Assembly (NCBI RefSeq): GCF_023243045.1
Contig: NZ_JALKFX010000015.1
Location: 1-64,000, forward strand
Direction: 5' to 3'
Length of the DNA: 64,000 nucleotides
Source: Frankia sp. AgB32
Lineage (GTDB): Bacteria; Actinomycetota; Actinomycetes; Frankiales; Frankiaceae
This document shows positions 8,603-64,000 of this stretch, in pieces. Each line of letters opens with the position of its first letter. The first letter of the stretch is position 1. A model generated the notes under the pieces. That model did no database searches and had not been told where the DNA came from. It saw nothing but the letters and a program-made list of their open reading frames with translations. The position numbers were made by a program, and so were the translations under genes.

Positions 8603-8790
8603 CAGACGACCTCCGATCCCGAGCCCTGAACGCGTCCATTCGTCCCACCGGTGTACCACGGATTTGCCGGGACGTTGCGCGCACCTGGTTGACAACAGCC
8701 CATCAGGGACATAAGAGCCTGGCCGGACAGCACTGACGTGCACCGATATCCTCCCATCACACACCAGCACCTCAAGGGGGGGCACACTCG

Positions 8791-9186
8791 GTGAAGGGCT
8801 TCAAGCAGTTCCTCATGCGGGGGAACGTGGTCGATCTGGCCGTGGCCGTGGTCGTCGGCACCGCGTTCACGGCAGTGGTCACGTCGCTCGTGAACAACAT
8901 CTTCACGCCGCTGATCGCCGCGATCTTCGGAAAGCCGGACTTCTCCGCGCTGACATTCAAGATCAATGGAAGCGTCTTCCGTTACGGCGCGTTCATCAAC
9001 AGCCTGATCGCGTTCGTCTCCGTGGCCACGGTGATCTACTTCGTCGTCGTGCTCCCGCTGAAGACCCTCAACGACCGGCGCGCACGGGGCCAGGTGCCGC
9101 CCGAGGAGGAACCGGTGCTGACGGACGAGGCCCGCCTGCTCATCGAGATTCGTGATCTACTGGCAGGGCAACGGTCCGGCTCCTGA
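8791..9186 (+). CDS. mscL: Large-conductance mechanosensitive channel MscL
   Basis: 131 residues, the normal family size. It begins M-K-G-F-K-Q-F-L-M-R-G-N-V-V-D-L-A-V-A-V-V-V-G-T-A-F, the N-terminal amphipathic helix and pore-lining TM1. The periplasmic loop holds F-R-Y-G-A-F-I-N-S-L-I-A-F before TM2, and the charged C-terminal bundle starts at L-N-D-R-R-A-R-G. Homopentameric emergency valve opened by hypo-osmotic membrane tension. GTG start at 8791, preceded by an A/G-rich Shine-Dalgarno (AAGGGGGGG). A strong hairpin follows the stop. Confidence 0.97.
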   Translation: MKGFKQFLMRGNVVDLAVAVVVGTAFTAVVTSLVNNIFTPLIAAIFGKPDFSALTFKINGSVFRYGAFINSLIAFVSVATVIYFVVVLPLKTLNDRRARGQVPPEEEPVLTDEARLLIEIRDLLAGQRSGS

Positions 9187-9206
9187 CCGGCCGACCCCGG
9201 AACGAC

Positions 9207-9244
9207 CGTTCGGCTGAGTGGGCGCGGGTCCACTCAGCCGAACG
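9207..9244 (+). terminator. Hairpin terminator after mscL
   Basis: A perfect 15-bp stem (9207-9221 with 9230-9244) around an 8-base loop, 20 bases after the mscL stop. No U-tract follows, which is common for actinobacterial terminators. Confidence 0.8.
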
Positions 9245-9293
9245 TTGGTTGGCATTCAGGAATCGCTCAGGCTAGCAAGGGAAAGTGCCTACC

Positions 9294-10934
9294 ATGACAC
9301 CGCGTCCACCCTTCAGCGACAGCGCCGATGACGCCCCGCTGGGTGGCGGCCGGGAGGGGTCCGGCGCCGGGCACGACTCGCCGTCCCCCTGGGCCCCACC
9401 CACCGACAGCGCGTTCGGGTCCAGGGCCGAACAGTCCCCGCCGGGCGGCCCCGTCAGTCCTCAGTCCGATCGGCCCGCCGGGTCGCCGCTCGCCGGCCCG
9501 CCAGCGCCCTACGGCGGATCGCAGCCGGGCCATCCACCGACCCGCCCGACGCCCCAGCCCCCGTACGGCACCGGCCCGAGCGGCCCGGGCCAGCCCAGCC
9601 CATGGGGAGGCCCGTCCGGCCCGGGGGTCTCCCCTCCCGGCGCGGGTGGTCCCGGCGGTATCGGCCCCTCCTATGGACCCCCGACCGGGGCGCAGCCGTG
9701 GCCCGGTCGGTGGAACACCCCCGACGGTGGCCTCCCACCGACCGGCCACGAGGCCCTCAGCGGCGCACGGTCCCCGGCCGGCGGCGGCACGGTGGCCCTG
9801 CGGCGGCGGCGGGTGGCGGCCGCCGGGCTGGCGATCGCCCTGGTGTCGGCCGGAATCGGCGGTGGAGTGGGTGCTCTCGTCGCCGGTGGCGACAACGGCA
9901 GCACGGTGGTGACCACCGCCGGCCTGGAACGCACCACCTCCACCGCGGGCGGAACCTCGCCGGCGGCGGCCGACACCGTGTCGGCGGCGGCGAAGAAGAT
10001 CCTACCGAGCGTGGTGACCATCTCCGAGGAGTCCAGCAGCGAGTCCGGCACCGGCTCCGGGATGATCATTCGGTCGGACGGACACATCCTGACCAACAAC
10101 CACGTCGTCTCCGGCGCCTCGGGCGGCGGTTCGCTGACCGTCACCCTCCAGGACGGCCGCACCTTCGACGCGCAGGTCGTCGGGACAGACCCGAGCTCCG
10201 ACCTGGCCGTCGTCAAGATCAACGCGTCCGGACTGACGGCGGCGACGTTCGGCAACTCCGACTCGCTGAACATCGGTGAACTGGTGGTCGCGGTCGGCAG
10301 CCCGCTCGGCCTGAACGGCACGGTGACCTCCGGCATCGTCAGCGCGCTGCACCGTCCGGTGCGCACCGGCGACGCGACCGTCCAGGACCAGCAGAACACC
10401 GTCCTCGACGCGATCCAGACCGACGCGCCGATCAACCCCGGCAACTCCGGCGGCCCGCTGGTCAACAGCCGCGGCGAGATCATCGGAGTGAACAGCGCGA
10501 TCGCGACGGTCGGCGGTGGCGGTAGCAGCCCGTTCGGCGGCACCCAGCAGTCCGGCAACATCGGCGTTGGCTTCGCGATCCCCGGGGACTACGCCGAGTC
10601 GGTCGCGACCCAGCTGATCACCTCCGGCAAGGCCACCCATCCCTACCTGGGCGTCTCCGCGTCAACCGCCAACGAGAACGCCCGCTCGACGGCGTCCAGC
10701 GGCACCGGCGCGCAGATTCGCTCCATGGTCTCCGGCGGGCCCGCGGAGAGCGCCGGCCTGCGCGCCGGCGATGTGATCACGAAGTTGGGGGATCGCGCCG
10801 TCAACGACGTCGACTCCCTGATCGCCGCGGTGCGCTCGCACGCCATCGGAGACGAGGTCGAGGTGACGTACACCCGCAACGGCCAGACCAGCACCGTGAA
10901 GGCCAGGCTCGCCCTGCAACCGCCGACGTCCTGA
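9294..10934 (+). CDS. HtrA/DegP-type membrane-anchored serine protease with PDZ domain
   Basis: Envelope quality-control protease. Residues 1-165 are a Pro/Gly-rich cytoplasmic tail. One TM helix (about 172-195, A-A-A-G-L-A-I-A-L-V-S-A-G-I-G-G-G) is followed by a trypsin-like domain. The triad is visible: His270 in T-N-N-H-V-V, Asp303 in S-S-D-L-A-V-V-K, and Ser385 in N-P-G-N-S-G-G-P-L. A C-terminal PDZ domain (about 445-546) contains G-P-A-E-S-A-G-L-R-A-G-D-V-I. ATG 9294 is preferred over GTG 9285 because AAGGGA is 11 bases upstream of the former and only about 2 from the latter. Monocistronic. Confidence 0.95.
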   Translation: MTPRPPFSDSADDAPLGGGREGSGAGHDSPSPWAPPTDSAFGSRAEQSPPGGPVSPQSDRPAGSPLAGPPAPYGGSQPGHPPTRPTPQPPYGTGPSGPGQPSPWGGPSGPGVSPPGAGGPGGIGPSYGPPTGAQPWPGRWNTPDGGLPPTGHEALSGARSPAGGGTVALRRRRVAAAGLAIALVSAGIGGGVGALVAGGDNGSTVVTTAGLERTTSTAGGTSPAAADTVSAAAKKILPSVVTISEESSSESGTGSGMIIRSDGHILTNNHVVSGASGGGSLTVTLQDGRTFDAQVVGTDPSSDLAVVKINASGLTAATFGNSDSLNIGELVVAVGSPLGLNGTVTSGIVSALHRPVRTGDATVQDQQNTVLDAIQTDAPINPGNSGGPLVNSRGEIIGVNSAIATVGGGGSSPFGGTQQSGNIGVGFAIPGDYAESVATQLITSGKATHPYLGVSASTANENARSTASSGTGAQIRSMVSGGPAESAGLRAGDVITKLGDRAVNDVDSLIAAVRSHAIGDEVEVTYTRNGQTSTVKARLALQPPTS

Positions 10935-50114: not shown

Positions 50115-52784
50115 TTGCTGATTGACAGATCACTGGTGGAGGCGGCGCTCCCGGGTTACTCCGTCGAGGGCGACCTGGGCCGGGGTGGGTACGGCCTCGT
50201 CCTGGCCGGTCAGCACCGGCTCATCGGCCGCAAGGTGGCCATCAAGATCCTTCTCGACACCTCCGACGACCCCGAGCTGCGCGCCCGCTTCCTGTCCGAG
50301 GCGCGGGTCCTGGCCGAGCTCGACCATCCGCACATCGTCCGCATCCACGACTACGTCGAGCACGAGGGCACCTGCCTGCTCGTGATGGAGCTGCTCTCCG
50401 GCGGGACCCTCAAGCAGCGCATCAGCAGCGGCCCGCTGTCGCCGGAGACGACGGTCTCCGTCGGGCTGGCGGCCGCGGCGGCGCTGTCCACCGCGCATGC
50501 CCAGGGCGTGCTGCACCGCGACGTCAAGCCGGACAACATCATGTTCGACGGCGGCGGCCTGCTGAAGGTGACCGACTTCGGCATTGCCAAGATCTTCGAC
50601 GGGGCGGAGACGACGGCGAGCGCGATCCTCGGCACGCCGCGCTACATGGCCCCCGAGCAGATCATGGGCGTCCGGCTGTTCCCGTCGACGGACCTCTACG
50701 CCCTCGCCGGCGTGCTCTACGAGATGATCGCCGGCCGGCCGCTGTTCGGCCGCCAGATGGCCGTCCAGCCGCTCACCCACCACCATCTGACGATCATGCC
50801 GGAGCCGCTGACCACGGTCCCGCCGCCGGTCTCGATGGTGATCATGCGGGCCCTGGCGAAGGACCCGAACGCCCGCTTCGCCGACGCGAACGACTTCGCG
50901 CTGGAGCTCGGCCGCGCCGCCAGCCGGGCCTTCGGCCCGAACTGGCTGTCCCGTTCCGAGGTCAAGCTCCGGGTGGACGACGAGATCCGCGACGCCGCGC
51001 TGGGCGTGTCGACGACCCCCCGGCCCGCCCCCGGCGGACCGGGGGGATATCCGGGCTCGGGCCCGCGCCCCGCGGGGTACCCGGGCACGCCAGGGGCCTT
51101 CGGCGGACCTGGCGGCGGACGCCCGGGCGGCGTCGGACCGGGCGGGATGGGCCCGGGGGGGATGGGGCCGGGGGGGATGGGCCCGGGGGGGATGGGCCCG
51201 GGGGGGATGGGCCCGGGGGGAGCTGGCCCGAGTGGGCCTGGGCGCCCGGGCGGACCTGGCGTCGGCTACCCGCCCGCCGGCTACCCGGGGCGTCCCGGCC
51301 AGGCCATCCCCGGCACGGCGGCGCCCGGCGGGCAGTCCACGCCAGGGCAGGCCGGGCCGGGACCAACCGGGCCAGGACCGACCGCGCCGGGTGACGCCGG
51401 ATTCACCAACGCGCCGACGGCGCGTGGCGGTCCGGGCCAGCAGCCGGGCGGTTGGAACGCGCATCAACCCGGCTCGACCCCACCGTCCCGCACCCCGCCA
51501 CCCCGGCCGCTCGGCGGCGGCTACGGACCCGGCGGGCCTGCCGGCGCCGGAACGCCCGCCGGTGGGCCGTACGGTCCGCCGCCGCGCGGGTCGGCGCACT
51601 CCGCGCACCGGGGCGGGCCTGGTCAGGGCGGCGGTACGGGCCTCAGTCGGAAACAGACGACATGGCTCATCGCTGGGACGGCGTTCGTCTTCATCGCGGC
51701 GATCACTGTCGGCATCGTGCTGGCGGTGGCGAACTCCGGCGGCGGGGGCGACGGCGGATCAGGCGGCCGCCCGGCGGTGACGGCCAAGGCGTACGTGGGC
51801 CCGGCGCTGACGGTGCAGGGGCTCAGCCCGTACAGCCTGTCGATCCAGCCGGACGGCGCGCTGCTGGTGTCCAGCCTGGCGACCGACCGCGTCCAGAAGA
51901 TCACCCCGGCCGGGGTTGCGAGCGACTTCGCCGGGACCGGCGCGGGCGGGATCAGTGGGGACGGCGGCCCGGCCACCTCCGCCCAGCTTGACGGCCCCGG
52001 CTCGACCGTGCGCGACAAGGCCGGCGACGTCTTCATCGGGGACGCGAAGAACAACCGCATCCGCAAGGTCACGCCGGCCGGCGTGATCACGACGGTCGTC
52101 GGCACCGGCACCGCCGGCTACGGCGGCGACGGCGGCCCGGCCACCGCCGCACAGATCAACAGCGCCGAGAAGGTCGTCGTCGGGCCCGACGGCAGCCTCT
52201 TCCTCTCCGACTACGAGAACCACCGCATCCGCAAGGTCGACCCGAACGGCATCATCAGCACGTACGTCGGGACCGGTGTCGCCGGCTACACCGGCGCGAA
52301 CGGGCCGGCCACCCAGGCGAAGATCAACGGTCCGAACGACCTCGCCATGGGCTCCGACGGCACGCTCTACTTCGCCGACCTCGGCAGCGACACCATCCAG
52401 AAGGTCACCCCGGACGGCATCATCAGCACGATCGCCGGCACCGGCGACGGCGGCTACTCCGGCGACGGCGGACCGGCCACGGCCGCCAAGCTCAACGTGC
52501 CCTCGGTGTCGCTCGGACCCGACGGCAAGACCTTCTACATCGCCGACTACCGCAACAACCGGATCCGCAAGATCGACCCGAACGGCATCATCACCACGAT
52601 CGCCGGCACGGGTGTCGAGGGCTCCTCCGGTGACGGCGGCCCAGCGACCGCCGCCCAGTTCAAGAACCCGAGCTCGGTGGTCGCCGACGGCAGCGGCTCG
52701 ATCTACATCTCGGACAACGGCAACGACCGGGTCCGCCGCATCGACCCGAACGGCACTGTTTCGACCATCGCCCAGCCGGGCTGA
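50115..52784 (+). CDS. Receptor-type Ser/Thr protein kinase with extracellular NHL propeller (first copy)
   Basis: 889 residues. Kinase domain 15-275: G-R-G-G-Y-G loop, Lys44 (V-A-I-K-I-L), H-R-D-V-K-P-D-N (about 134-141), D-F-G (about 153), A-P-E-Q. A Gly/Pro linker (290-515) contains repeated G-P-G-G-M. One TM helix (about 516-540), then about six NHL repeats, each like G-D-G-G-P-A-T-A-A-Q with R-I-R-K-V-D-P-N-G-I-I, forming a beta-propeller outside the cell, as in PknD-type receptors. Start TTG 50115 is the best fit to the paralogue; no clear ribosome site. Lies eight bases before its paralogue. Confidence 0.92.
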   Translation: MLIDRSLVEAALPGYSVEGDLGRGGYGLVLAGQHRLIGRKVAIKILLDTSDDPELRARFLSEARVLAELDHPHIVRIHDYVEHEGTCLLVMELLSGGTLKQRISSGPLSPETTVSVGLAAAAALSTAHAQGVLHRDVKPDNIMFDGGGLLKVTDFGIAKIFDGAETTASAILGTPRYMAPEQIMGVRLFPSTDLYALAGVLYEMIAGRPLFGRQMAVQPLTHHHLTIMPEPLTTVPPPVSMVIMRALAKDPNARFADANDFALELGRAASRAFGPNWLSRSEVKLRVDDEIRDAALGVSTTPRPAPGGPGGYPGSGPRPAGYPGTPGAFGGPGGGRPGGVGPGGMGPGGMGPGGMGPGGMGPGGMGPGGAGPSGPGRPGGPGVGYPPAGYPGRPGQAIPGTAAPGGQSTPGQAGPGPTGPGPTAPGDAGFTNAPTARGGPGQQPGGWNAHQPGSTPPSRTPPPRPLGGGYGPGGPAGAGTPAGGPYGPPPRGSAHSAHRGGPGQGGGTGLSRKQTTWLIAGTAFVFIAAITVGIVLAVANSGGGGDGGSGGRPAVTAKAYVGPALTVQGLSPYSLSIQPDGALLVSSLATDRVQKITPAGVASDFAGTGAGGISGDGGPATSAQLDGPGSTVRDKAGDVFIGDAKNNRIRKVTPAGVITTVVGTGTAGYGGDGGPATAAQINSAEKVVVGPDGSLFLSDYENHRIRKVDPNGIISTYVGTGVAGYTGANGPATQAKINGPNDLAMGSDGTLYFADLGSDTIQKVTPDGIISTIAGTGDGGYSGDGGPATAAKLNVPSVSLGPDGKTFYIADYRNNRIRKIDPNGIITTIAGTGVEGSSGDGGPATAAQFKNPSSVVADGSGSIYISDNGNDRVRRIDPNGTVSTIAQPG
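51134..51230 (+). repeat. 15-bp tandem repeats encoding GPGGM in the kinase linker
   Basis: Six to seven 15-bp units (GGGCCCGGGGGGATG-like) rich in G runs; expansion or contraction stays in frame. Confidence 0.8.
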
Positions 52785-52792
52785 GCCCCGCG

Positions 52793-55306
52793 ATGAGGGA
52801 ACAGATCGACGTCGGCCGGGTGTCCGCCGCCCTGCCCGGCTACGAACTGGGCGCCGAACTCGGCCGCGGCGGCTTCGGCGTGGTGCTCGCCGGTCGACAC
52901 CGGCTCATCGACCGCCCGGTCGCCGTCAAGGTGCTGCTGGACCCGACCGAGGGCGGCGACGTCGGTGACTCCGACGGCGGCCTGCGGACCCGTTTCCTCG
53001 GCGAGGCCAGGGTCCTGGCCGGCCTGGACCATCCCCATGTCGTGCGCATCTACGACTACGTGGAGTCCGACGGTCTGTGCCTGCTGGTGATGGAGCAGCT
53101 CACCGGCGGCAGCCTGCGCGGGCGCGGGCGGACGCTGAGCGCCCCGGCCTCGGCGGGCGCGATCGGGGTGGCCGCCGCGGTGGCGCTGGCCGCGGCCCAC
53201 AGCCACGGCGTGCTGCACCGCGACATCAAGCCCGACAACCTGCTGTTCACCGAGGACGGCACCCCCAAGGTCGCCGACTTCGGCATCGCCAAGATCGTGG
53301 AGGCGACCGCGGCGACGACGACCGGCCTGGTCGGCACTCCTCGATACATGGCCCCGGAGCAGATCACCGGCGGCCGCCTCGGCCCGGGCACCGATCTGTA
53401 CGCGCTGGGTGTCGTCCTCTACGAACTGCTCGCGGGTCGCTCACCGTTCCCTCCGGACCTTCCCGTCGCGGCGCTGCTGCACCACCACCTGTCCGTGGCG
53501 CCCCTCCCGCTGTCCGAGGCGCCTCACCCCGTGGCCAAGGTGATCATCTCGGCGATGGCGAAGGAACCGGGCTGGCGGCCGCCGACCGCTCTCGATTTCG
53601 CGGTCCGGCTCGCCGCCGCGACCACCGCGTCGATCGGTCCGGGCTGGCTGAACGCGAGCCGCGTGCCCGTCCGACTGCCCGACGAGGTACTCGCCGCAGC
53701 CGGCCACCAGCCAGGCACCGGGCCCAGCTCCTACGACCCGGGCCAGGGGACGCCCTCCGGGCCAGGTCAGCGATTCCCGTCCGGCCCCGGTCAGTGGACC
53801 CCGTCCGGACCGGGCCAGCAATTCCCGTCCGGCCCCGGTCAGCAGACCCCGTCCGGACCGGGCCAGCAGATCATGCCCGACGCCACGGTGCCGAACGGAT
53901 CCCGCTGGTCAGGCCCCGATGCCGGGCCGAATGCGCCGGCACCGAATGCCCCGGCCTGGAACGCCGCCGCCCCGCCGGCCCCGGGCGGGCCGACCCGCGT
54001 CGATCATCGGGCGCCGGACCATCGGCCCCCGGACCAGTGGCATCCGGGCGGGCCGGCGCCCATCCCGCGGACGGCGCTCGGACCGCCCTCGCCGACCGCC
54101 CGCGCGGGGCGTCGTCACCGGCCCGACAACCGCCGCCGGCTTGTGATCGCCGCGGTGGCGGCGGTCGCGGTGCTGGCCCTCACCGTCGGGCTGCTCATCG
54201 GCCTCGGCGGGATCGGCGGCGGAGGCGATGACAAGCGCCTCGCCGCCTACGGCGGTGCGGCGGTCACGTACTCCGGGCTGGAGGACGCCCACGCGCTGGC
54301 CCTCGCCGCCAACGGCACGCTCTACGTCACCGATCCGGGCACCGAGGTCGGACAGGGCCAGGTCATCCAGTTCACCGCCGAAGGGAAGGCCACCCGCCTC
54401 GGCGGCAGCGGCCCCCACCCGACGCCGTCGGTCGAGCCCTCGCCGTCACCGACTCCGGTCCTCGGCGACCACGGCCCGTCGCTGGCCGCCGAACTCCAGC
54501 AGCCGGTCGGGGTCGCGGTCGGTCCCGATGGCGCGATCTACCTGGCCGAGACCGACGCGGGCCGCATCCGCCGGATCGGCACCGACGGGATCATCACCAC
54601 CATCGCCGGCACGGGGCGCGACTCCTCCACCGGTTCGGTCGCCGACAAGGGCGACGCCACCAGGGCGTACCTCGACGACCCCTACGCCGTCGCGGTGGAC
54701 GGCAAGGGCGTCGTCTACGTCACCGAGGGCTACCGGGTCCGGCGGATCGAGAACGGACAGATCAGCACGGTCGCCGGCCGGCAGGACGAGTCGGGGTCAG
54801 CCGGCGACGGCGGCCCGGCCGTCAACGCCACCCTGTCCGACCCCAGCGGCCTGGCCCTGGCCCACGACGGCACCCTCTACGTCGCCGATGCCGGCAGTGA
54901 CACTGTGCGGCGGATCGACCGTTCGGGCGTCATCAGCCTGGTCGCCGGCAAGCAGGGCACGGAGGGACGTCGCGGTGACGGCGGCCCCGCCACCGCGGCC
55001 CAGCTGTACAACCCCCGGGGCCTGGCGCTCGGCCCGGACGGCTCGCTGTACATCGCGGACGCCGGCAACAACGTCATCCGCCGGGCCGACGCGAAGGGTG
55101 TGATCAACACCGTCGCCGGCTCGGGCACCTACTCGTCCGAGCAGGATGCCAGGACGCTGGCGACCCAGGTTCCGCTCAGCACTCCGTCCGGGGTGGTCGT
55201 CGATCCGTCCGGGGCGCTCTACATCGCGTCCGCCGGGGACGGAACGATCCGGCGGGTGGAGACGGACGGTTTCCTGACGACCGTGCTGACCCCGCCCGAA
55301 TCCTGA
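52793..55306 (+). CDS. Receptor-type Ser/Thr protein kinase with extracellular NHL propeller (second copy)
   Basis: 837 residues, the same architecture as the preceding gene. Kinase motifs: G-R-G-G-F-G, V-A-V-K-V-L, H-R-D-I-K-P-D-N (about 141), D-F-G-I-A-K (about 161), A-P-E-Q. A linker with P-S-G-P-G-Q-Q repeats, a TM helix (about 450-472), then NHL repeats. The start reads M-R-E-Q-I-D-V-G-R-V-S-A-A-L-P-G-Y-E. A tandem duplicate that has diverged, especially in linker and propeller; probably one transcript with the first kinase. Confidence 0.93.
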   Translation: MREQIDVGRVSAALPGYELGAELGRGGFGVVLAGRHRLIDRPVAVKVLLDPTEGGDVGDSDGGLRTRFLGEARVLAGLDHPHVVRIYDYVESDGLCLLVMEQLTGGSLRGRGRTLSAPASAGAIGVAAAVALAAAHSHGVLHRDIKPDNLLFTEDGTPKVADFGIAKIVEATAATTTGLVGTPRYMAPEQITGGRLGPGTDLYALGVVLYELLAGRSPFPPDLPVAALLHHHLSVAPLPLSEAPHPVAKVIISAMAKEPGWRPPTALDFAVRLAAATTASIGPGWLNASRVPVRLPDEVLAAAGHQPGTGPSSYDPGQGTPSGPGQRFPSGPGQWTPSGPGQQFPSGPGQQTPSGPGQQIMPDATVPNGSRWSGPDAGPNAPAPNAPAWNAAAPPAPGGPTRVDHRAPDHRPPDQWHPGGPAPIPRTALGPPSPTARAGRRHRPDNRRRLVIAAVAAVAVLALTVGLLIGLGGIGGGGDDKRLAAYGGAAVTYSGLEDAHALALAANGTLYVTDPGTEVGQGQVIQFTAEGKATRLGGSGPHPTPSVEPSPSPTPVLGDHGPSLAAELQQPVGVAVGPDGAIYLAETDAGRIRRIGTDGIITTIAGTGRDSSTGSVADKGDATRAYLDDPYAVAVDGKGVVYVTEGYRVRRIENGQISTVAGRQDESGSAGDGGPAVNATLSDPSGLALAHDGTLYVADAGSDTVRRIDRSGVISLVAGKQGTEGRRGDGGPATAAQLYNPRGLALGPDGSLYIADAGNNVIRRADAKGVINTVAGSGTYSSEQDARTLATQVPLSTPSGVVVDPSGALYIASAGDGTIRRVETDGFLTTVLTPPES

Positions 55307-55430
55307 GGTCCGCCGAGTCCTGACACACCCGGCGGGGACCCGGATGGCATACGTTCGCGGGAGGATTCCGCGCCGCGCGACACCGGGTGCGGCGCCGGAT
55401 TCCGCCCGGAAGGCTCGGCTGGGAGGACTC

Positions 55431-57032
55431 ATGCGCGGTCCGGACAGGCGGTCCCTGCTGCGGGCCGCCGGTGCCGGCGGGCTGTCCCTGGCGGGGCTCG
55501 CGGCCGGCGGCGGCCTGCTCGGCGGCTGCGACGACTCCGGCGGCGGACCGGGCCCGCGCGACGCCACCGCGAGCGACGCCGACTGGGCCGCGCTGGAGGG
55601 CAGGCTGGCGGGCCCGCTGCTGCGGCCGGGCAACCCCGACTACGCCGACGCCAGTCAGCTGTTCGATCCGGCGTTCGACTCGATCCGGCCGCAGGCGGTC
55701 GCGCGCGCGACGTCACCGGCGGATGTGGCGGCGTGCGTCGACTTCGCCCGGCGCAGCGGGCTGCCACTGGCCGCCCGGGCGGGTGGCCACAGCTACGGCG
55801 GCTACTCCACGACGACCGGCCTCGTCGTCGACGTGACGCCGATGGCCGCGGTGACCGTCGTCGGTGGCGGCCTCGCGCGGATCGGCGCGGGAGCGCTGCT
55901 GGTCGACGTCTACGACCGCCTCGGTCAGGCCGACCTGGCCCTGCCGGCGGGTTCCTGCCCGACCGTGGGCATCGCCGGGCTGGCCCTCGGGGGCGGTATC
56001 GGCGTGCTCGGCCGCCGCTACGGCCTGACCTGTGATCGGATGGTCTCCGCCGACGTCGTGCTCGCCTCGGGCGAGACCGTGCACACCGACGCCGAGCACG
56101 AACCGGACCTGTTCTGGGCGCTGCGCGGCGCCGGCGGCGGCAACGTCGGCATCGTCACGTCGTTCACCTTCGCCACCCACCGGGCGACGCCGCTGGCGCT
56201 GTTCACCCTCCACTGGCCGTGGGCGGCGGCCGCCGACGTGGTCGCCGGCTGGCAGAAATGGATCTCCGAGCCGGGCGGCGCGCCGGACACCGTCTGGTCC
56301 ACGTGCGTCGTCTCCTCCGCGCCGGCGAGCGGGGTCGGCGGCACGCCGGTGCTGCGGGTCAGTGGCGTGCTCTCCGGCAGCGCCGACGACGCCGCCGTCG
56401 CCGGGCTGCGCGCGCAGCTCGCCGCGCTCGTGGACGCCGCCGGGCATCCGCCGTCCAGCACCTCCGTCGTCACCCGCGGGCATCGTGCCGCGATGCTCAT
56501 CGAAGCGGGTTGCGCCGGCCGGAGCGTGGCGTCCTGCCATCTCAGCGGTCGCACGCCGGGGGGCACGCTGAACCGGGTCGCCCAGCGGGCCGCGTCGGCC
56601 TTCCTGCTGGAGCCGATGCCGGCCCGCGGCATCGAGGCGATGCTCGCCGCGATCGAGCGGCGTCAGCGCACCGCCGACGCGGGCTCCGGCGTGGTCATCC
56701 TGGATTCCTGGGGCGGGGAGATCAACCGGGTCGCGCCGGGTGACACGGCGTTCGTCCATCGGGGGGCGATCGCGAGCGCCCAGTACGTCGCCGGGTACTC
56801 CATCGGCGCGAGCGCGGCGGTGAAAGCGGCCAACCAGGGCTGGTTGCGGTCCACCATCGCCGCGACAGCCCCCTACGTCTCCCGGTCGGCCTACCAGAAC
56901 TACATCGATCCGGAACTGGCCGGCTGGGCGCAGGCCTACTACGGGACGAATCTCGATCGGCTACGACAGGTCAAGCGAGCCTACGACCCGACCAGTGTCT
57001 TCCGGTTCGCGCAGGGCCTGACGCCCGCCTGA
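55431..57032 (+). CDS. Secreted FAD-linked oxidoreductase (berberine-bridge type)
   Basis: 533 residues. Tat-like start (P-D-R-R-S-L-L-R-A-A-G) ending L-L-G-G-C, so probably an exported lipoprotein. FAD-binding domain: A-G-G-H-S-Y-G-G-Y-S with His120 and G-L-T-C-D-R-M-V-S-A-D with Cys201, the two residues that bind flavin covalently in bicovalent BBE enzymes. The BBE C-terminal motif Y-Q-N-Y-I-D-P-E-L ends near Y-D-P-T-S-V-F-R-F. Oxidises alcohols or sugars in relatives; substrate unknown. ATG 55431 has GGGAGG upstream. Confidence 0.92.
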   Translation: MRGPDRRSLLRAAGAGGLSLAGLAAGGGLLGGCDDSGGGPGPRDATASDADWAALEGRLAGPLLRPGNPDYADASQLFDPAFDSIRPQAVARATSPADVAACVDFARRSGLPLAARAGGHSYGGYSTTTGLVVDVTPMAAVTVVGGGLARIGAGALLVDVYDRLGQADLALPAGSCPTVGIAGLALGGGIGVLGRRYGLTCDRMVSADVVLASGETVHTDAEHEPDLFWALRGAGGGNVGIVTSFTFATHRATPLALFTLHWPWAAAADVVAGWQKWISEPGGAPDTVWSTCVVSSAPASGVGGTPVLRVSGVLSGSADDAAVAGLRAQLAALVDAAGHPPSSTSVVTRGHRAAMLIEAGCAGRSVASCHLSGRTPGGTLNRVAQRAASAFLLEPMPARGIEAMLAAIERRQRTADAGSGVVILDSWGGEINRVAPGDTAFVHRGAIASAQYVAGYSIGASAAVKAANQGWLRSTIAATAPYVSRSAYQNYIDPELAGWAQAYYGTNLDRLRQVKRAYDPTSVFRFAQGLTPA

Positions 57033-57636: not shown

Positions 57637-58632
57637 CTAGCGAATCTCCCTGGCCAGCGGGCGGGTCACGGCGACCGTCCCGGTCCAGTCCGAGATATCG
57701 GACTCCACGACCCCCCACCGCGCGCCCTTGGCCGCGATGACCTTGCCCTCGCCGATGTACATCCCGACGTGGCCGGGAGCGTCGGCCGTGCCGTCCGAAC
57801 CAGGCGTGAACAGCAGATCACCCGGCTGCGGGTCGACGCCCGCGACCGCCGGTCCGAACGCGAGCTGGTCCGTGGTGACCCGGGGCAGTTCGATGCCGAC
57901 GAGCCGGTACGCGGCCTGCACGAGCGACGAGCAGTCCCAGGTGTCCGGCCCTGTCGCGCCCCACACGTACGGCTTGCCGATCTGCGCCTGCACGAACTCG
58001 ATCACCGGCGCGATCGTGCCCGGCGGGATGTCGACCCCCACCTGCAGGGAGTCGCCGTACACCTGCGACTGAGCGAGGATCGTGCGCACGTAGTTGCGCG
58101 TCTCGGTGTAGGGCGGGACGCCCGCGAAGGCGAGCACCGCGCCGGCGCCGGCGTTGTACGCGGCGAGCATCTTCTCCTGCCCGTCGCCCGGCACCGACGC
58201 GACGGACGCCGCCACCTCGCAGTCGTACCGGGCCGCGGCGGGGATCGCGTCCGCCGGATTCCACACGTCGCCCCGGCCGTGACCGGCCCAGGTGGCGGGC
58301 ATGAACTGGGCGATGCCCATGGCGCCGACGGGGGAGGTGGCCCGCGGGTTGAAGCCGGACTCCTGCTGCAACTGGGCGGCCAGCAACGCCGGCGTCACCT
58401 CCGCGCAGCCGGCGTCGTTCGCCGCATCAGTGATCATTTTGACGTACTCGGCGGGGATGCCGTCGGAGTTCTGGATCGCCCGGTCGCCCTTGCCGTGATC
58501 ACCGATGAACGGCCCGGCCACCATGACGATCAGTAGCGAGACCAGCAGGATGATCCCGCCGACGACCACCACCGAACCGACGCCCAGCCACATCAGCCAG
58601 CCTGACCGACCAGGCGGAAACCGACGGGCCAT
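57637..58632 (-). CDS. Lytic transglycosylase - NlpC/P60 endopeptidase, TM-anchored
   Basis: 331 residues: TM helix (about 13-45), SLT lysozyme-like domain with catalytic Glu91 in Q-Q-E-S-G-F-N-P and Q-F-M-P-A-T-W plus A-A-Y-N-A-G-A-G, then a C-terminal NlpC/P60 domain with Cys234 in W-D-C-S-S-L-V-Q and the His in A-P-G-H-V-G-M-Y-I-G. This bifunctional design is typical of peptidoglycan hydrolases of Gram-positive conjugation systems (VirB1/TcpG-like), which open the wall for transfer. The neighbours support this. ATG 58632. Seven bases separate it from the lipoprotein gene upstream, so they form one operon. Confidence 0.92.
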   Translation of the reverse strand: MARRFPPGRSGWLMWLGVGSVVVVGGIILLVSLLIVMVAGPFIGDHGKGDRAIQNSDGIPAEYVKMITDAANDAGCAEVTPALLAAQLQQESGFNPRATSPVGAMGIAQFMPATWAGHGRGDVWNPADAIPAAARYDCEVAASVASVPGDGQEKMLAAYNAGAGAVLAFAGVPPYTETRNYVRTILAQSQVYGDSLQVGVDIPPGTIAPVIEFVQAQIGKPYVWGATGPDTWDCSSLVQAAYRLVGIELPRVTTDQLAFGPAVAGVDPQPGDLLFTPGSDGTADAPGHVGMYIGEGKVIAAKGARWGVVESDISDWTGTVAVTRPLAREIR

Positions 58633-58638
58633 CCCCGC

Positions 58639-59310
58639 CTACCGCCCCGGAGCGTCGCCGGCGGCGTTGGCGAGATCCGCCCCGGCCACCCGCCACGTCC
58701 CGTCCAGCTGGCGAAGCATCGTCAGGGCCGGTGTGGACACGGCCACGACCGGCGCCTGGCTTCCCGAGACCGTCTCGCGACGCACGTTCAGTTGGAGCAC
58801 GACCCGGCCGGTCGCGCTCGTGTCGATCCCGCCGAGCGGGGTGGTCGCGAGGACGGACACCGTCGAGCGGGTGCCCGCGGCCCGCAGGTCCTGCCACGCC
58901 TGGCCGTCGGCACCCGCGGCCGGGCCGGCCGTCGCGCCCACGCCCAGGGACGCGGCGAAGTCATCGGTGAGACAGTCCCGAGCCCGGTCCAGGCCGGCCG
59001 TCGGCCCGGAATCCGTCCGCGCGTCGAACGACTGCCAGCGGGTGAAGCAGTCGGCCGCGACCGCGGCGGGATCGGTGTGGTCGACCTGGCCGCTCGCCGG
59101 CGCGGTCGCGGTGGCGAGCGGCGGTCCGGGAGCCTGGCTCGCCCCGGGCGGCGGCCCCGTCGTCACCGACGGGCTCGGCGAGGACACCTCGGTGACGTGG
59201 CCGAACGAGCCGCAGCCGGCCAGCGCGGCCACCAGGGTCAGCCACACCAACGGGCCGAGCACGGCGCCGCGCCGGCCGGCGACGCCGGCTCCAGGTCGGA
59301 TCGCGATCAC
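58639..59310 (-). CDS. Lipoprotein with NTF2-like domain, possibly conjugation-associated
   Basis: 223 residues. Lipobox L-A-G-C (about residue 33), a Pro/Ser linker, then a 140-residue domain (D-P-A-A-V-A-A-D-C-F-T-R-W-Q-S-F-D onward) with conserved W-R-V-A-G-A near the end. This alternation resembles NTF2-like extracytoplasmic proteins such as TcpC/VirB8, but is not conclusive. Operon with the lysozyme/NlpC gene downstream. Confidence 0.7.
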   Translation of the reverse strand: MIAIRPGAGVAGRRGAVLGPLVWLTLVAALAGCGSFGHVTEVSSPSPSVTTGPPPGASQAPGPPLATATAPASGQVDHTDPAAVAADCFTRWQSFDARTDSGPTAGLDRARDCLTDDFAASLGVGATAGPAAGADGQAWQDLRAAGTRSTVSVLATTPLGGIDTSATGRVVLQLNVRRETVSGSQAPVVAVSTPALTMLRQLDGTWRVAGADLANAAGDAPGR

Positions 59311-59367
59311 GTAGCGCTGCCGCCTACCGCCGGCCGCGTGCCAGGCCGGCCACCGCCGCCGACGTGG

Positions 59368-59868
59368 TCATTCGCGGCCGTCCAGCCAGTCCCGGACCCG
59401 CCCCCGCCGCACCCGCCACTGGTGGCCGACCTTGCGGGCCGGGATCGCTCGCTCCGAGAGCAGTTTCAGGACCGTGCTCTCGGACAGCCGCAACCAGGCG
59501 ACCAGTTCATCGACGGTGAGCACCTCGTCGTCGTCCGACGGGCGCGCCGCTGGCTGCGCCGCGCCCGGCCCGGTCGCCCCGCCCCCACCGGATGCCGCGC
59601 CGGCGGTTGCCGCGCCGGCGGTTGCCGCGCCGGCGGTTGCCGCGCCGGCGGAGGTGCCCGGTGACGCGGCGGGTGGCAGACCGACCGACCTGGCCGCGTT
59701 GGCCGAGCTGCCGCGGGGCCGGACGGCCCCGCCGGACGCGGCGCGAGGCGACACCGGGCCGACTGGCGCGGGCCAGCCGGACGCGGGCGGCGCACCCTGC
59801 GGGCCGGCCGGACGCCCGACCCGACCGGACGGACGGGGGGAGGACATCGAGAAGCCATCCTGCGCCAC
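59368..59868 (-). CDS. Excisionase/MerR-like helix-turn-helix protein with long Ala/Pro leader
   Basis: 166 residues. The C-terminal 55 (V-L-T-V-D-E-L-V-A-W-L-R-L-S-E-S-T-V-L-K-L-L onward, with G-H-Q-W-R-V-R-R-G-R-V-R-D-W-L) is a typical excisionase-type winged helix. The first 110 residues are disordered and contain A-G-A-A-T repeats. The GTG at 59868 has AGGGAG seven bases upstream. Could regulate the element or act as excisionase; no integrase is visible. Confidence 0.85.
   Translation of the reverse strand: MAQDGFSMSSPRPSGRVGRPAGPQGAPPASGWPAPVGPVSPRAASGGAVRPRGSSANAARSVGLPPAASPGTSAGAATAGAATAGAATAGAASGGGGATGPGAAQPAARPSDDDEVLTVDELVAWLRLSESTVLKLLSERAIPARKVGHQWRVRRGRVRDWLDGRE
59597..59651 (-). 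repeat. 15-bp tandem repeat in the excisionase-like gene
   Basis: Three perfect copies of GCGCCGGCGGTTGCC and one partial, encoding G-N-R-R-R or A-G-A-A-T depending on frame; the real frame gives A-G-A-A-T. Confidence 0.85.
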
Positions 59869-60047
59869 CCGACGCTCCCTTCACTGTTTGCTCCGCCGCA
59901 CGATCAACGTTGCGCCGCTACTCGGCCCCCGGCCACCCCCGCCGACCCCGGTCCCACTCGACTACGCACACCCAGCCAGGCCACCGGTTCGCAGGGGTGA
60001 CCCGTCCCGCACTCTCACGTTCCGGCTCCGAAAACTACACCGACCCA

Positions 60048-60144
60048 CTTGTCATGGGTAGCCTCAACCAAAGCTTGTCATACTCGAATGGCTCGTGTTA
60101 CATCGATCCGACCGCAGCCAAAGATAAGTAACCGTAAGTAACCT
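60048..60144 (+). promoter_or_regulatory. Control region with direct repeats before the ParA-like gene
   Basis: This 321-bp gap (59869-60189) is AT-rich for the window. CTTGTCAT occurs at 60048-60055 and 60074-60081 (26 bases apart). TAAGTAACC occurs at 60126-60134 and 60136-60144, exactly ten bases apart and so on one helix face. They are probably regulator binding sites; no gene seen in the gap. Confidence 0.5.
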
Positions 60145-60189
60145 TAACTGGCACTAGCTAGCCTGAGAGAGCCGGGAGGGCGACGGCGC

Positions 60190-62661
60190 GTGAGCGATGT
60201 GCCACAGGCACCGCACGGTGAGGAAGGTGACGCGCGGCCGGTCTCCCTCATCGGGGCCCGCCTGCCCACCGCGGCCTCCCGTTCCCAGCGGCTGTCCGAC
60301 CACGAGAACCAGTACGGCCCAGGCGGTGCGCCGGCCAGCGACGACACCGAGTCGTCCCTCTACCCCCGTTCCGGCCGCCGTCGACACCGGCGGCGAGCTG
60401 AGTCGGAAGCGCCCGAACCACCCGACGAGGCGTGGCAGAGCGAGGCGTTCCACCTCGATGATGCGACATCCACGAACGAATCGGATGCGGAACGTGCGAG
60501 CGCAGCCGAGGTCACGTCCGGGTCACGCGCCGGCGCCGCGGGCGGCGCGAAATCCGACGACGCCGCGGCCCAGAACCCCGCGGGGGGTGGTCGGACCCGG
60601 CGGACCGGCCGACCGGCGGCGATCGCGCCGCGCGGCCAGGGAGAATCCGCCCGGCACCGAGCCTCCACGGGCACCGCCGATCAGACGGGCTCCCCGCGTT
60701 CGACCCCGGCGGACACCCCACCCACCACCGCGGCGCAGCCCGCTCCGAACACGCAGCGCACTCGGCCGCCGCGCGCGTCCGCCCCGCCCCGCCCCAGCGC
60801 AGCCCAACCCACACCAGCCGTCCAGCCCACACCAGCCACACCCGCCACACCGGCGTCCGGCGTGGGCGGCGACGGCGCTTCGCTCCGCGCCACAGAGCCG
60901 CCGTCTGACCCTGGCATCACCGTCGGTGACCCATCCAAGGCGATCCAGAAAAGCTCCGCCGACCCCTCGACCGCCGCTGCTCCCCTCGCCGCCACCGAGA
61001 TCGTCGCGATCGGCGACTCCATCACCGTCACCGGTTCCATCGCGGCGGCCAGCCCGGTCGAACCAACCCAGTCGTCGCGCCCGACGCCGACGGACCCGCT
61101 GACCGGACCCGTCTCCTTCCCGCACCTCGAGAAGGACGAGCGCGAGCCGACCCGCGCGCTGCTCCCGAACCAGCCGGAAACGTCGACTCGCGACCAGGAC
61201 TCGGCGGCGGCCGCCCCGCCCGTCCCCGTCTCGCCGACGCACAGCAGGCTCCCAGCGGTCGCGCCACCGTCGGCCGACCCGCACCCGGCTCCGCCGCTGG
61301 CCCCCGACGTCCCGCTGGACCCGCTCGCCCGCCAGACGCCGGCGCCAGGCTCGCCGCTGCCCGCCTCCCGCCCGAGCCCCCCGGTCAGGACGCCCGCGCC
61401 CACCGGCAAGCCAGCCGCGATCCGGCCGGACCAGCCGGCTGCCGAGCCGCGGTCATGGCGTGGCGGGCGGGATCTCGAACCGCGCGAGGAAATCCCGGTT
61501 CGCCTCTCCGCCCGCGACCGTGCCCGCATCCCGCTCCCGGGGTCCTGGCGGATCGCCGTCACCTCCCTGTTCCCCTACTCGGGGACGACGACGCTGGCCG
61601 GGGTGATCGGCCTGACCCTGACCGGGATGCGGGCCCATCCGGTCCTCGCGGTCGACCTCTGGCCGGGCGAGCCCGCCGAACCGGTGGCCACCTCGCCGTC
61701 GTCCGCCGACGAGGACGAGCCCAGAGGGGACCCGCTGACGAGCCGCGTCGGTTCGGCGGGAACGACCAACATCGCCGACGTCCTCGCCCATCAGGCGGGT
61801 GACGGGGCGGCCACCGAGCTACGTCTGATGATCGCTGGCCAGCGTGGGGGCGGCGCGCGGGACCTCGACGTCCTCCCACTCAGAACGGACGCCGGCCGGT
61901 TCGCGCAACCACCACGGCGGGACGGGGCGCCGGCGGAGCCGGATGTGCCGGTCCTCGCCGGCGCGGACCAGCACGTCGCCCCTGGCGGCCTGCGGTCGGT
62001 GCTCGGCCTGCTCGCCCACTCGTATCCCCTCGTCCTCGTGGACGCGCCGACCGAGGCGCCGCTGACCGATGTGGCGGTCGCGGCGGCGGACCTCGTCGTC
62101 CTCGTCACCCTCGCCACCGCGGCCGACCTCGAAGCCACGATCATGCGGCTGCGGGCGTTCCGCGAGGCGGCCGGCGACGGCCCCGCCGGTGACGGCGCCC
62201 CGCCCATCGTCGCGGCGATCGTCGCCCCCCGCCGCGGCCGTCCGTCGCCACGTACCCGGGCCGCCGCGGCCCGGCTCGGCCGGCAGGTGGAGGCGCTGGT
62301 ACGGATCCCCTACGACCCGCGGCTGGACCCCAGCCGGCACACTCCGGTCCGCATCCCCCGACTACGCCGACGAACTCGCCGCGCCTACCTGCGCCTCACC
62401 GCAGCAGCGGTCGAAAACCTGTTCATCCTCGCAAAAGCCGAGGTAGGAGCTTCAGGGAAGACCAGGGAAGGGCCAGCCGGAGCCTCATCCGGCGCCATCC
62501 GGCCGATCACGACACGTACCCAGAGCGGCGCGACGAGCGGCCCACCGGCCACTACCAGGGATCACGACGCATCGATCGGCGTATCATTCGGCGACCTACG
62601 GTCACCAACGGCACCCTCACGGATCGCCGGACCGGATCGTCCGGGCGAGCCCCGCCCGTGA
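60190..62661 (+). CDS. ParA/MinD-like ATPase with degenerate P-loop and long disordered N-terminus
   Basis: 823 residues. The first 450 are Pro/Ala/Thr-rich and disordered. The C-terminal domain begins S-W-R-I-A-V-T-S-L-F-P-Y-S-G-T-T-T-L-A-G-V-I-G-L-T, in which the usual K-G-G-V-G-K-T-T is replaced and the Lys is absent. Switch II-like L-V-L-V-D-A-P-T-E-A and A-A-D-L-V-V-L-V-T follow, and R-I-P-Y-D-P-R-L. It is a ParA-fold protein, probably with weak or no hydrolysis. Such proteins accompany actinobacterial conjugation and type VII loci. GTG 60190 with GGAGGG ten bases upstream. Confidence 0.75.
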   Translation: MSDVPQAPHGEEGDARPVSLIGARLPTAASRSQRLSDHENQYGPGGAPASDDTESSLYPRSGRRRHRRRAESEAPEPPDEAWQSEAFHLDDATSTNESDAERASAAEVTSGSRAGAAGGAKSDDAAAQNPAGGGRTRRTGRPAAIAPRGQGESARHRASTGTADQTGSPRSTPADTPPTTAAQPAPNTQRTRPPRASAPPRPSAAQPTPAVQPTPATPATPASGVGGDGASLRATEPPSDPGITVGDPSKAIQKSSADPSTAAAPLAATEIVAIGDSITVTGSIAAASPVEPTQSSRPTPTDPLTGPVSFPHLEKDEREPTRALLPNQPETSTRDQDSAAAAPPVPVSPTHSRLPAVAPPSADPHPAPPLAPDVPLDPLARQTPAPGSPLPASRPSPPVRTPAPTGKPAAIRPDQPAAEPRSWRGGRDLEPREEIPVRLSARDRARIPLPGSWRIAVTSLFPYSGTTTLAGVIGLTLTGMRAHPVLAVDLWPGEPAEPVATSPSSADEDEPRGDPLTSRVGSAGTTNIADVLAHQAGDGAATELRLMIAGQRGGGARDLDVLPLRTDAGRFAQPPRRDGAPAEPDVPVLAGADQHVAPGGLRSVLGLLAHSYPLVLVDAPTEAPLTDVAVAAADLVVLVTLATAADLEATIMRLRAFREAAGDGPAGDGAPPIVAAIVAPRRGRPSPRTRAAAARLGRQVEALVRIPYDPRLDPSRHTPVRIPRLRRRTRRAYLRLTAAAVENLFILAKAEVGASGKTREGPAGASSGAIRPITTRTQSGATSGPPATTRDHDASIGVSFGDLRSPTAPSRIAGPDRPGEPRP

Positions 62662-62674
62662 GAAAGGAACCGCG

Positions 62675-63091
62675 ATGATCCACGACGCCGCCTCCGCCCA
62701 GGCGACCGTCTTCCTTGCCGCCGTGCAGGTGAAGCCGGACGACTCGAAGGCGCCTGGCATCAACGCACTGAAAGACCTGGTCAACGGCTTGGCTGCCTAT
62801 GCCGTGATCGCCGCCGTGGCCGCCGTGCTCCTCGGCGGTATTGCCTGGGCACTCGGCGAACGGATGGGCCTTGAGCGAGCATCCACGGTCGGAAAGAGCG
62901 GGGTCATCGCGGGCTTCGGCCTGGCATTCCTCGTCGGCGCCGCCGCCGCCTTCATCAACTTCTTCCTGGTGACCGGCGCAACGGCCACCGCCCCTGCGCC
63001 CAACCCGGGTGGCCAGCGCCCGCCGGCCGTCGAACTCACCGTCGCCGTTGACCCCGGCGTGGTCCATGACCCAGCATCCCCCCTGTTCTAA
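62675..63091 (+). CDS. VirB2-like two-TM protein, putative pilin-like channel component
   Basis: 138 residues. After a short N-terminus come two TM helices (about 38-58, L-A-A-Y-A-V-I-A-A-V-A-A-V-L-L-G-G-I-A-W-A, and 78-103, V-I-A-G-F-G-L-A-F-L-V-G-A-A-A-A-F-I-N-F-F) separated by a short loop with W-A-L-G-E-R-M-G. This is the pattern of DUF6112/VirB2-like proteins of actinobacterial T4SS-type loci. A Pro-rich tail follows. ATG with AAAGGAA upstream. Between a ParA-like gene and further locus genes. Confidence 0.75.
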   Translation: MIHDAASAQATVFLAAVQVKPDDSKAPGINALKDLVNGLAAYAVIAAVAAVLLGGIAWALGERMGLERASTVGKSGVIAGFGLAFLVGAAAAFINFFLVTGATATAPAPNPGGQRPPAVELTVAVDPGVVHDPASPLF

Positions 63092-63160
63092 CCGGTTCCC
63101 CGGGTGCACGCGGGCGGACATTGCGATGATGACCGCACCGTCTTGTGAGGGGAGTGGGCG

Positions 63161-63961
63161 TTGCCGGGTTATACGGATACCGTAGCCAGACGCCTGATCA
63201 TGATCATCGCTACCGCCAGCGCGGTTAGCGTGGTCTGCGGAGTGCTGATCGGCCGCTACGCCATCCCAGACAACAGCGCCGCCCCGGGCCCCACCTCCGC
63301 CGCGCCAAGTTCCAGCCCTAGCGAGCCCGCGAGCAAGCCGGCACCGTCCGCCACGGCGCTTGTGCCAACCTCTCCTACTCCATCGACATCAACGTCGGGT
63401 GACTCTGGAACCACAGAAAGTACAGTCCCGGGAACGCCGACGCGCATCAACCAGTACGGAATACCCATTGGATATCCCCGTACGCAGGCGGGCGCGGTCA
63501 GCGCATGCGCAAATTATGACGCGATCAACGGGAAGCTTCAAAACCGCGAGCCAACAACAATTAGAAATATGTACGCATCAATCGCAACACCAGAGGCATC
63601 CAAAAAGCTCTCTGATCTAATAATCGAGAACGACAAGAAAAGCGCTAAGACATACGGAGTACCTTCGATTCAAGCCCCGAACTTTGGCTTCATCGGTCGC
63701 GCGACCGGATATTCGGTACAGTCTTACACTCAAGACGATGCCAATGTCACCATCTGGGGCGTTCTAGGCTTTGGCATTTACAACAGTACAGATGCAAATC
63801 TATCCCCTAAGGAAGGCTGGGCGACAGATACTTGTCGCGTCATCTGGAGCGACGGCGACTGGAAACTTGACGATGCGGGCGATGGTCCCGCGAATCCCGC
63901 AATTACCGATCGCGCTGCCGAAGGTTTCAAGGAATTTCTATTGGTCGGAGCTGGGACGTGA
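63161..63961 (+). CDS. TM-anchored secreted-domain protein of the conjugation-like locus, low GC
   Basis: 266 residues: TM helix (about 11-34, L-I-M-I-I-A-T-A-S-A-V-S-V-V-C-G-V-L-I-G), a Ser/Pro/Thr linker (about 38-95), then a 170-residue extracytoplasmic domain with C-A-N-Y-D-A-I-N and D-T-C-R-V-I-W (two Cys, perhaps a disulfide) ending W-K-L-D-D-A-G-D-G. This resembles VirB8/NTF2-type lumen domains only in layout. The second half is 45% GC in 63541-63600, far below the neighbours. TTG start at 63161 is provisional; an alternative is a nearby GTG. Overlaps the next gene by GTGA. Confidence 0.7.
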   Translation: MPGYTDTVARRLIMIIATASAVSVVCGVLIGRYAIPDNSAAPGPTSAAPSSSPSEPASKPAPSATALVPTSPTPSTSTSGDSGTTESTVPGTPTRINQYGIPIGYPRTQAGAVSACANYDAINGKLQNREPTTIRNMYASIATPEASKKLSDLIIENDKKSAKTYGVPSIQAPNFGFIGRATGYSVQSYTQDDANVTIWGVLGFGIYNSTDANLSPKEGWATDTCRVIWSDGDWKLDDAGDGPANPAITDRAAEGFKEFLLVGAGT

Positions 63962-64000
63962 CCGAGGGCACCGTAGTTCTTGCCGGAAGCTTCAAGGATC
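63958..64000 (+). CDS. Start of next gene in the locus (truncated by window edge)
   Basis: GTG 63958 overlaps the preceding TGA (GTGA) and opens V-T-E-G-T-V-V-L-A-G-S-F-K-D. Only 14 codons are visible. Overlap implies translational coupling; function unknown. Confidence 0.6.
   Translation, partial: MTEGTVVLAGSFKD

Follow-up and report, generated by a model that had tools for sequence, protein, structure and literature searches.

A type IV secretion-like gene block in Frankia sp. AgB32

We analyzed the first 64,000 bases (the window) of contig C66 (NZ_JALKFX010000015.1; 87,629 bases) from the 6.68 Mb genome of Frankia sp. AgB32, focusing on a block of genes related to type IV secretion systems (T4SS) that starts at position 57637 and runs past the right end of the window. 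Gene calls and profile matches recovered, at about the expected positions, all the parts that an initial annotation, made from the sequence alone, had listed between 57637 and 64000. On the minus strand, the block encodes a VirB1-like wall hydrolase of 331 aa, anchored by a transmembrane (TM) helix and fusing an SLT transglycosylase to an NlpC/P60 domain (57637..58632; PF01464 4.7e-16, PF00877 9.1e-21), a lipoprotein with the lipobox LAGC and a Cys33 invariant in 9 of 9 copies (58639..59310), and an HTH_17/excisionase-like DNA-binding protein with a low-complexity N-terminus (59368..59868; PF12728 1.2e-9, TIGR01764 5.9e-9). The description of the lipoprotein as NTF2-like was not confirmed: it had no Pfam match and did not resemble the VirB8-like protein of the block in a profile comparison.

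The plus strand carries genes for an 823-aa ParA-fold protein (60190..62661), identified by comparing its modelled domain with known structures, a two-TM DUF6112 protein (62675..63091; PF19607 8e-10) that is VirB2-like by topology only, and a VirB8-like protein (63161..63961) assigned by layout and model, with a TM helix, a linker and an extracellular VirB8-fold domain. These are followed by a multi-TM, VirB6-like gene of the SCO6881 family (63958..65337, of which the window holds 63958..64000; NF047967 3.7e-13) and, to the right of the window on C66, by genes for an SCO6880-family protein (65446..66948; NF042935 4.5e-106) and a VirB4-like ATPase (66945..68945; NF045971 1.6e-19, TIGR00929 9.7e-10, PDB 4ag5 VirB4 1e-8). 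Plus-strand gaps from the ParA-fold gene through VirB4 are 13, 69, -4, 108 and -4 bases, including a four-base overlap of the VirB8-like gene end with the SCO6881-family gene start at 63958, and the spacing is operon-like. The rightward extension bore out the proposal of a T4SS-type locus: of the components sought in the next 15 kb, the VirB4-like ATPase and the VirB6-like protein were present, and no coupling protein was found among the open reading frames (ORFs) scanned right of the window. The block holds several parts of a monoderm T4SS, namely a VirB4-class ATPase, a VirB8 protein (by fold only) and a VirB1-like wall hydrolase. The SCO6880-family protein (65446-66948 on C66, or 8447-9949 of fetched locus L002) also matches the EccE model of type VII secretion (TIGR03923 4.2e-11), raising a possible kinship between type IV and type VII systems through this family.

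The VirB4-like ATPase of this locus retains its P-loop lysine and an intact Walker B motif, and carries a variant P-loop, GxVGSRKS, in which arginine replaces the last glycine. This variant is present in all 42 Frankiaceae locus rows, in which some genomes count twice, whereas 20 of 21 other rows have a GxGK[ST]-like P-loop and the remaining one was not found by pattern. The ParA-fold protein gave no significant match in profile or sequence searches. Its first 430 or so residues are rich in proline and alanine, and the model of its ParA-like domain (residues 433-735) matches ParA, MinD and Soj structures (Z 17.7-13.4), as the initial annotation had anticipated. The model also matches the two-domain Eubacterium rectale protein 3fkq, which we take to be TadZ. 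The Walker A region of these proteins reads FPYSGTTT in AgB32 and FPYSGATT, GGSGRTT or RGSGRTT in other copies, and neither Walker A lysine is present in any copy read, covering 17 of 19 and 17 of 23 locus rows; in the others the stretch was cut off or unmatched by the pattern. Two aspartates at the expected positions of other nucleotide motifs are invariant in 11 of 11 copies. The protein is hence, as first described, a P-loop-less ParA, with a fold unable to use the classical P-loop, and it probably acts as a non-cycling scaffold for positioning or docking.

Between the two divergent transcription units lies a candidate operator (60126..60142, plus strand), a direct repeat AAGTAACCGT-AAGTAAC with a 10-bp period. 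Allowing up to one mismatch, the repeat (AAGTAACCGTAAGTAACC) occurs only once in the 6.68 Mb genome and is present in 15 of 25 family genomes; its chance expectation in the window is 0.01 at up to three mismatches. It is conserved in relatives: of the 18 sites listed, 13 lie between the HTH_17 and ParA genes and five elsewhere, and a copy in Frankia locus L080 falls within a coding gene. Conservation within the genus extends strongly beyond the repeat, over some 110 bp ahead of the ParA-fold gene (60050-60165), which we consider a probable promoter/operator block. The HTH_17 protein is predicted to bind the adjoining repeat and would probably control both units from it. According to the accessible part of PMC5859096, BldC, a small winged helix-turn-helix protein, binds head-to-tail on direct repeats with 9 bp per protomer; the conserved repeat beside the HTH_17 gene has a period of 10 bp. 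Sequence profiles of the HTH_17 and SCO6880 proteins returned no PDB match.

Distribution in the Frankiaceae and kinship with Streptomyces cmdABCDEF

We fetched 18 Frankiaceae loci around the SCO6880 orthologue, 12 with the whole hydrolase-to-VirB4 stretch and six cut by contig ends, and 23 named loci from Frankia, Parafrankia, Protofrankia and Pseudofrankia whose genomes are largely the same as the 18. Wherever the contig reaches in these 18 and 23 loci, the order of the block is constant, with hydrolase, lipoprotein and HTH_17 genes on one side, and ParA-fold, DUF6112, VirB8-like, SCO6881, SCO6880 and VirB4 genes on the other. This recurrence throughout the family shows that the arrangement goes beyond chance. 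The gene for a FAD-binding/BBE oxidase (55344..57032, plus strand; PF01565 3.2e-26, PF08031 1.7e-16) adjoins the hydrolase gene in Frankia, Parafrankia and Pseudofrankia loci and was not detected in Protofrankia-like loci. On the right, VirB4 is followed by a convergent SCO6745-family gene and then by PEBP, VTT and lipase genes, a flank kept in most Frankia loci. To the left of the FAD oxidase, positions 50115-55306 encode two protein-kinase-like proteins in tandem, both with C-termini rich in repeats; in many Frankiaceae, the block is flanked by their relatives.

When named genomes were scanned for the SCO6880 orthologue, matches came only from Frankia, Parafrankia, Protofrankia and Pseudofrankia. 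Among 24 Frankiaceae genomes, the orthologue is present in 20 and a fragment of the operon in a 21st (G007), and the locus was not found in G012, G015 and G018. An apparently split SCO6880 gene in two uncultured Frankia records was traced to a gap of Ns; one of these, G020, counts among the 20, with its gene in two pieces around the gap. In trees of both VirB4 and SCO6880 the Frankiaceae form one clade (100/100) with short tips, largely sorted by genus code. The dN/dS of SCO6880 (0.03-0.06), the lowest among the 14 genes compared, led us to reject the idea of a decaying relic.

Integrase searches returned no match on C66 and 13 matches elsewhere in the genome; no tRNA gene turned up in the window or in the 13 kb to its right, and PF03432, the only relaxase family searched, was not found in the genome. 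A six-frame search of the genome for the coupling protein family PF02534 gave a match only on another contig, C122, and none on C66, which was covered to its end at 87629. This family is present somewhere in 14 of 24 Frankiaceae genomes holding the locus, never listed as adjoining it, and in the one-contig genomes concerned (G003, G010 and G138) the coupling protein is encoded far from the locus. It is absent from the other 10 of the 24, among them G005 and G017, each a single contig; the genome-wide search did not extend to TcpA/FtsK-type proteins. Two further T4SS-like loci exist in the AgB32 genome. Contig C122 (L044) encodes a VirD4-like coupling protein and has its own VirB4 and SCO6880-type genes, with an integrase match at the far contig end, and likely carries a true conjugative element. 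A second T4SS-like locus, on contig C253 (L045, 1236-9073), comprises a divergent SLT-NlpC gene (54% identity) and VirB8-like, TrbL-like, SCO6880 and VirB4 genes, and has counterparts in some other Frankia.

One gene of the block had probably been noticed before. In the part available of a 2008 study (PMC2266912), a single VirB4-like gene, most like a Streptomyces ATP-binding protein, is described as conserved near the origin in Frankia strains CcI3, ACN14a and EAN1pec, and in CcI3 it is placed at 0.035-0.096 Mb, within a region that also holds a secretory lipase. In G010 (5.43 Mb), the locus lies at approximately 40-53 kb, with the lipase gene, and the reported gene is very probably the VirB4 of the present locus. 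That study, in the same portion of its text, judged type IV secretion genes not well conserved, did not describe the operon and drew no link to cmd, which was published in 2009. The open-licence literature searched yielded no link of cmd, Frankia and T4SS.

The closest characterized relative of the Frankiaceae locus is the cmdABCDEF operon of Streptomyces coelicolor (SCO4126-4131), which, in the portion available of PMC2782261, affects sporulation, chromosome segregation and actinorhodin production and encodes a membrane-bound, VirB4-like CmdB. We identified the cmd locus among the fetched loci (L060) by the P-loop lysine at residue 90, in agreement with the K90 named in the accessible text of that study (where a P-loop primer is named K404A), and by its P-loop ESGNGKSALE, which matches the printed mutagenic primer except at the mutated codon; the family of genomes labelled f18 was taken as Streptomyces from this match. 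Frankiaceae profiles find VirB8-like, SCO6880 and VirB4 genes in the same order in L060 and in a second cmd locus, L062, which comes from another f18 genome, and the VirB6-like gene in L060. At E<1e-10, the VirB8-like profile matches only these two among 20 non-Frankiaceae loci. Built with Frankiaceae and f18 sequences, this profile matches 65 of 296 class genomes at E<=1e-4, and its matches at or below 5e-31 are confined to Frankiaceae, 27 f18 genomes and G030.

The resemblance extends to the neighborhood. Next to cmd lies a divergent SLT-NlpC gene whose product is 41-42% identical over near full length to the Frankiaceae hydrolase, and near that gene a FAD oxidase counterpart with 39-45% identity. 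Across 16 further f18 loci the divergent hydrolase recurs in 15 and the FAD oxidase in seven, and G030, from another family, has the same operon and hydrolase. For each of six matching cmd-region proteins, the best match among C66, C253 and C122 is on C66. The gene order F-E-D-C-B with a divergent SLT-NlpC gene is thus found here, with CmdF equivalence resting on position only. Both loci are chromosomal and share the succession of two-TM, VirB8-like, VirB6-like, SCO6880-family and VirB4-like proteins, the divergent hydrolase and, in several genomes, the nearby FAD oxidase; the VirB4 and SCO6880 proteins of cmd are highly conserved within their genus. The Frankiaceae locus differs from cmd in adding ParA-fold, HTH_17 and lipoprotein genes, in lacking CmdA, in its GSRKS P-loop and in its swapped ectodomain. 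CmdA itself (L060 13395-14984) carries a TraG-D_C match (PF12696 7.5e-6) and appears to be a degenerate VirD4-like protein.

Exchange of the VirB8-like ectodomain

The VirB8-like protein produced no sequence family match, and a PDB profile search gave only unrelated weak matches. Its model, confident only from about residue 88 onward, supports a VirB8 fold for the product of 63161-63961, in keeping with the layout noted initially. In VIA-align, the first 18 of 50 rows all belong to the DotI/VirB8/TraH class (DotI, TraM, IcmL-like, VirB8, TrwG, CagV and TraH domains; Z 11.3-9.3 over 117-128 residues), and Foldseek ranked NTF2-like folds of ARC6 and CaMKII first.

The gene encoding this protein diverges from its surroundings. 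Within-genus pairwise dS is 1.8-2.3 for the VirB8-like gene against 0.3-1.0 for other block and flanking genes, and third-position G+C is 0.54-0.72 against 0.72-0.96 in nearly all neighbors. In a comparison of 28 genomes (378 pairs, leaving out those with <180 aligned residues), the closest pair shows 2.5% divergence across four flanking genes and 32% in the VirB8-like gene. In four sister pairs (L042/L043, L034/L035, L033/L127 and L091/L131), the surrounding genes are 94-97.5% identical at the nucleotide level and the ectodomains 39-49% at the amino acid level. Windows of 100 bases in these pairs reveal that the first ~300 bases of the gene are 90-100% identical, as are nearly all flanking coding windows, that identity falls to 44-74% in the ectodomain, with one transitional window at 88%, and that it rises again in the next gene. 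In AgB32 the exchanged segment spans 63518..63961 on the plus strand. Directly before the break lies a conserved stretch, GIPxGYPxTxAGAxSACxNY, starting at 63458, which could serve as a recombination hinge. Three other pairs (L027/L029, L036/L129 and L031/L130) present no such break and only a milder excess of divergence.

We compared 27 ectodomains, two genes having been dropped by a motif or length filter, and found that the nearest neighbor of the ectodomain differs from that of the backbone in 19 of 27 genomes. The odd ectodomain in the sister pairs has its closest counterpart in a more distant genome, and approximately unbiased (AU) tests reject the pairing of each of the four pairs (p 4.6e-6, 8.2e-6, 1e-29 and 3.5e-43), with the proviso that these pairs were picked for looking discordant and the p-values are not blind. 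The VirB8 ectodomain is thus exchanged between strains by recombination, and its common descent with the backbone is rejected. Pairwise dN/dS for the gene is 0.12-0.24, and two cysteines are kept in 27 of 27 sequences. The pattern suggests diversifying selection acting on a surface that faces outward, possibly through partner-cell recognition, phage avoidance or host contact. Among the closest pairs of 18 Streptomyces loci, CmdE displayed no clear swap, and is still more variable than CmdB-D. We found no report of exchanged VirB8 domains in the open-licence literature searched. A comparable case is Bartonella VirB5, a T4SS surface subunit whose alleles also cross species by recombination according to the accessible text of PMC3391547; there the exchange involves VirB5 in an animal-host antigen setting, whereas the present case concerns the VirB8 ectodomain of a plant-symbiotic soil bacterium.

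Nature and proposed activity of the machine

We consider it probable that the block encodes a T4SS-like envelope machine that is chromosomally fixed, vertically inherited and the counterpart of Streptomyces cmdABCDEF. The initial annotation had offered an integrative element and a chromosomal export system as alternatives, and it is the latter that the fixed, syntenic block supports. VirB4, VirB6-like, VirB8-like, SCO6880-family and wall hydrolase genes are typical of conjugation loci, the block includes an excisionase-like gene, and relatives of SCO6880 occur on 160 plasmid records, as would befit the edge of an integrative conjugative element (ICE). All 160 plasmid matches are nevertheless <60% identical, the HTH protein is conserved together with the block, integrase, tRNA and PF03432 relaxase are missing as detailed above, no coupling protein is encoded nearby, and the block keeps the same genomic neighbors family-wide, a synteny that already makes an ICE edge unlikely; we regard it as highly improbable. 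The S. coelicolor SCO6871-6884-type clusters and actinobacterial T4SS ICEs and plasmids draw on the same SCO6880, SCO6881, DUF6112 and VirB4 families, but differ in their scattered distribution, in the VirD4-like gene beside VirB4 in many of those fetched, and in that a VirB8 of this family was undetected in most. Independent domestication of such an SCO6880-type cluster in the ancestor of the family, with no kinship by descent to cmd and with the hydrolase and FAD oxidase neighbors arising by convergence, is a more serious contender, though we think it doubtful. Several results favor it and weigh against the kinship that we propose: the VirB4 and SCO6880 proteins resemble those of other VirB4/SCO6880 clusters, many of which have VirD4, more than those of cmd (mostly 234-411 bits with the VirB4 profile, versus 171-176 for cmd), cmd sits on a long, unsettled branch in both trees, CmdA is not matched on C66 (weakly matching only the C122 coupling protein, E 0.005), profiles could not demonstrate relatedness of CmdF and DUF6112, and no relatives of the ParA, HTH_17 and lipoprotein genes were found in cmd loci. 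Since VirB4 and SCO6880 scores and trees do not favor cmd, orthology rests on synteny and on the VirB8 and hydrolase genes; the shared VirB8-like protein, the position and orientation of the hydrolase and the FAD oxidase neighbor argue against convergence. Also to be set against our interpretation are the match of the VirB6-like protein to the SCO6881 family at 49 bits, versus a family cut-off of 325, the middling confidence of the ParA-domain model (mean predicted local distance difference test score, pLDDT, 60.5), and searches that found neither expression nor phenotype for the operon in Frankia.

No coupling protein is linked to the block, and PF02534 is undetectable in ten of the genomes that have retained it; most probably, then, the machine is not one that conjugates DNA. 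A role in conjugation or DNA movement through the unlinked coupling protein or VirB4 itself would accord with the kinship of VirB4-class ATPases with DNA translocases, with the PF02534 protein encoded somewhere in 14 of the 24 genomes and with the chromosome-segregation defects of cmd mutants (PMC2782261, in the part available). We judge it unlikely, given the ten genomes without PF02534 and the unchanged transfer of an SLP2-derived plasmid on loss of the cmd cluster, mentioned in the available text of PMC2782261 as data not shown; secretion was not part of that study as far as this text goes, which tempers our preference for an export role. The Ptl system of Bordetella pertussis is likewise a VirB machine without a coupling protein, and differs in being a diderm toxin exporter with other accessory genes (PMC12857230, in its accessible portion). 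As for the ectodomain, mere fast evolution under weak constraint, with no exchange, could be read into the variability of CmdE and the mild excess in the three other close Frankiaceae pairs, but the sharp drop from anchor to ectodomain in the four sister pairs, the discordant neighbors and AU rejections, the dN/dS values and the invariant cysteines render it very improbable.

On the preferred reading of a fixed, cmd-like machine, the TM-anchored transglycosylase/endopeptidase would open the wall locally, in the role of VirB1, and the two-TM, VirB6-like, SCO6880 and VirB8-like proteins would form an envelope complex powered by the VirB4-like ATPase and positioned or docked by the ParA-fold scaffold. 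The output may be export or assembly of a protein substrate, or envelope remodelling, in hyphal development. More tentatively, the ectodomain, replaced by recombination inside otherwise conserved operons, might constitute an allotype, a swappable recognition module with which filamentous actinobacteria, using a permanent T4SS-like machine positioned by a P-loop-less ParA fold, tell partner hyphae, hosts or phages apart; recombination would then take place between the conserved stretch after the linker and the start of the next gene, supplied from a pool that is shared across the family and has a low G+C of its own.

These results bring scattered "VirB4-like", "SCO6880 family" and "DUF6112" annotations together into what is probably a single non-mobile T4SS-like machine, common in outline to Frankiaceae and Streptomyces, for which the Streptomyces counterpart offers a mutant phenotype. 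That even genomes assembled as one contig can lack a coupling protein raises the question of what the machine moves, and the exchanged VirB8 ectodomain may provide a genetic handle on partner, phage or host interaction.

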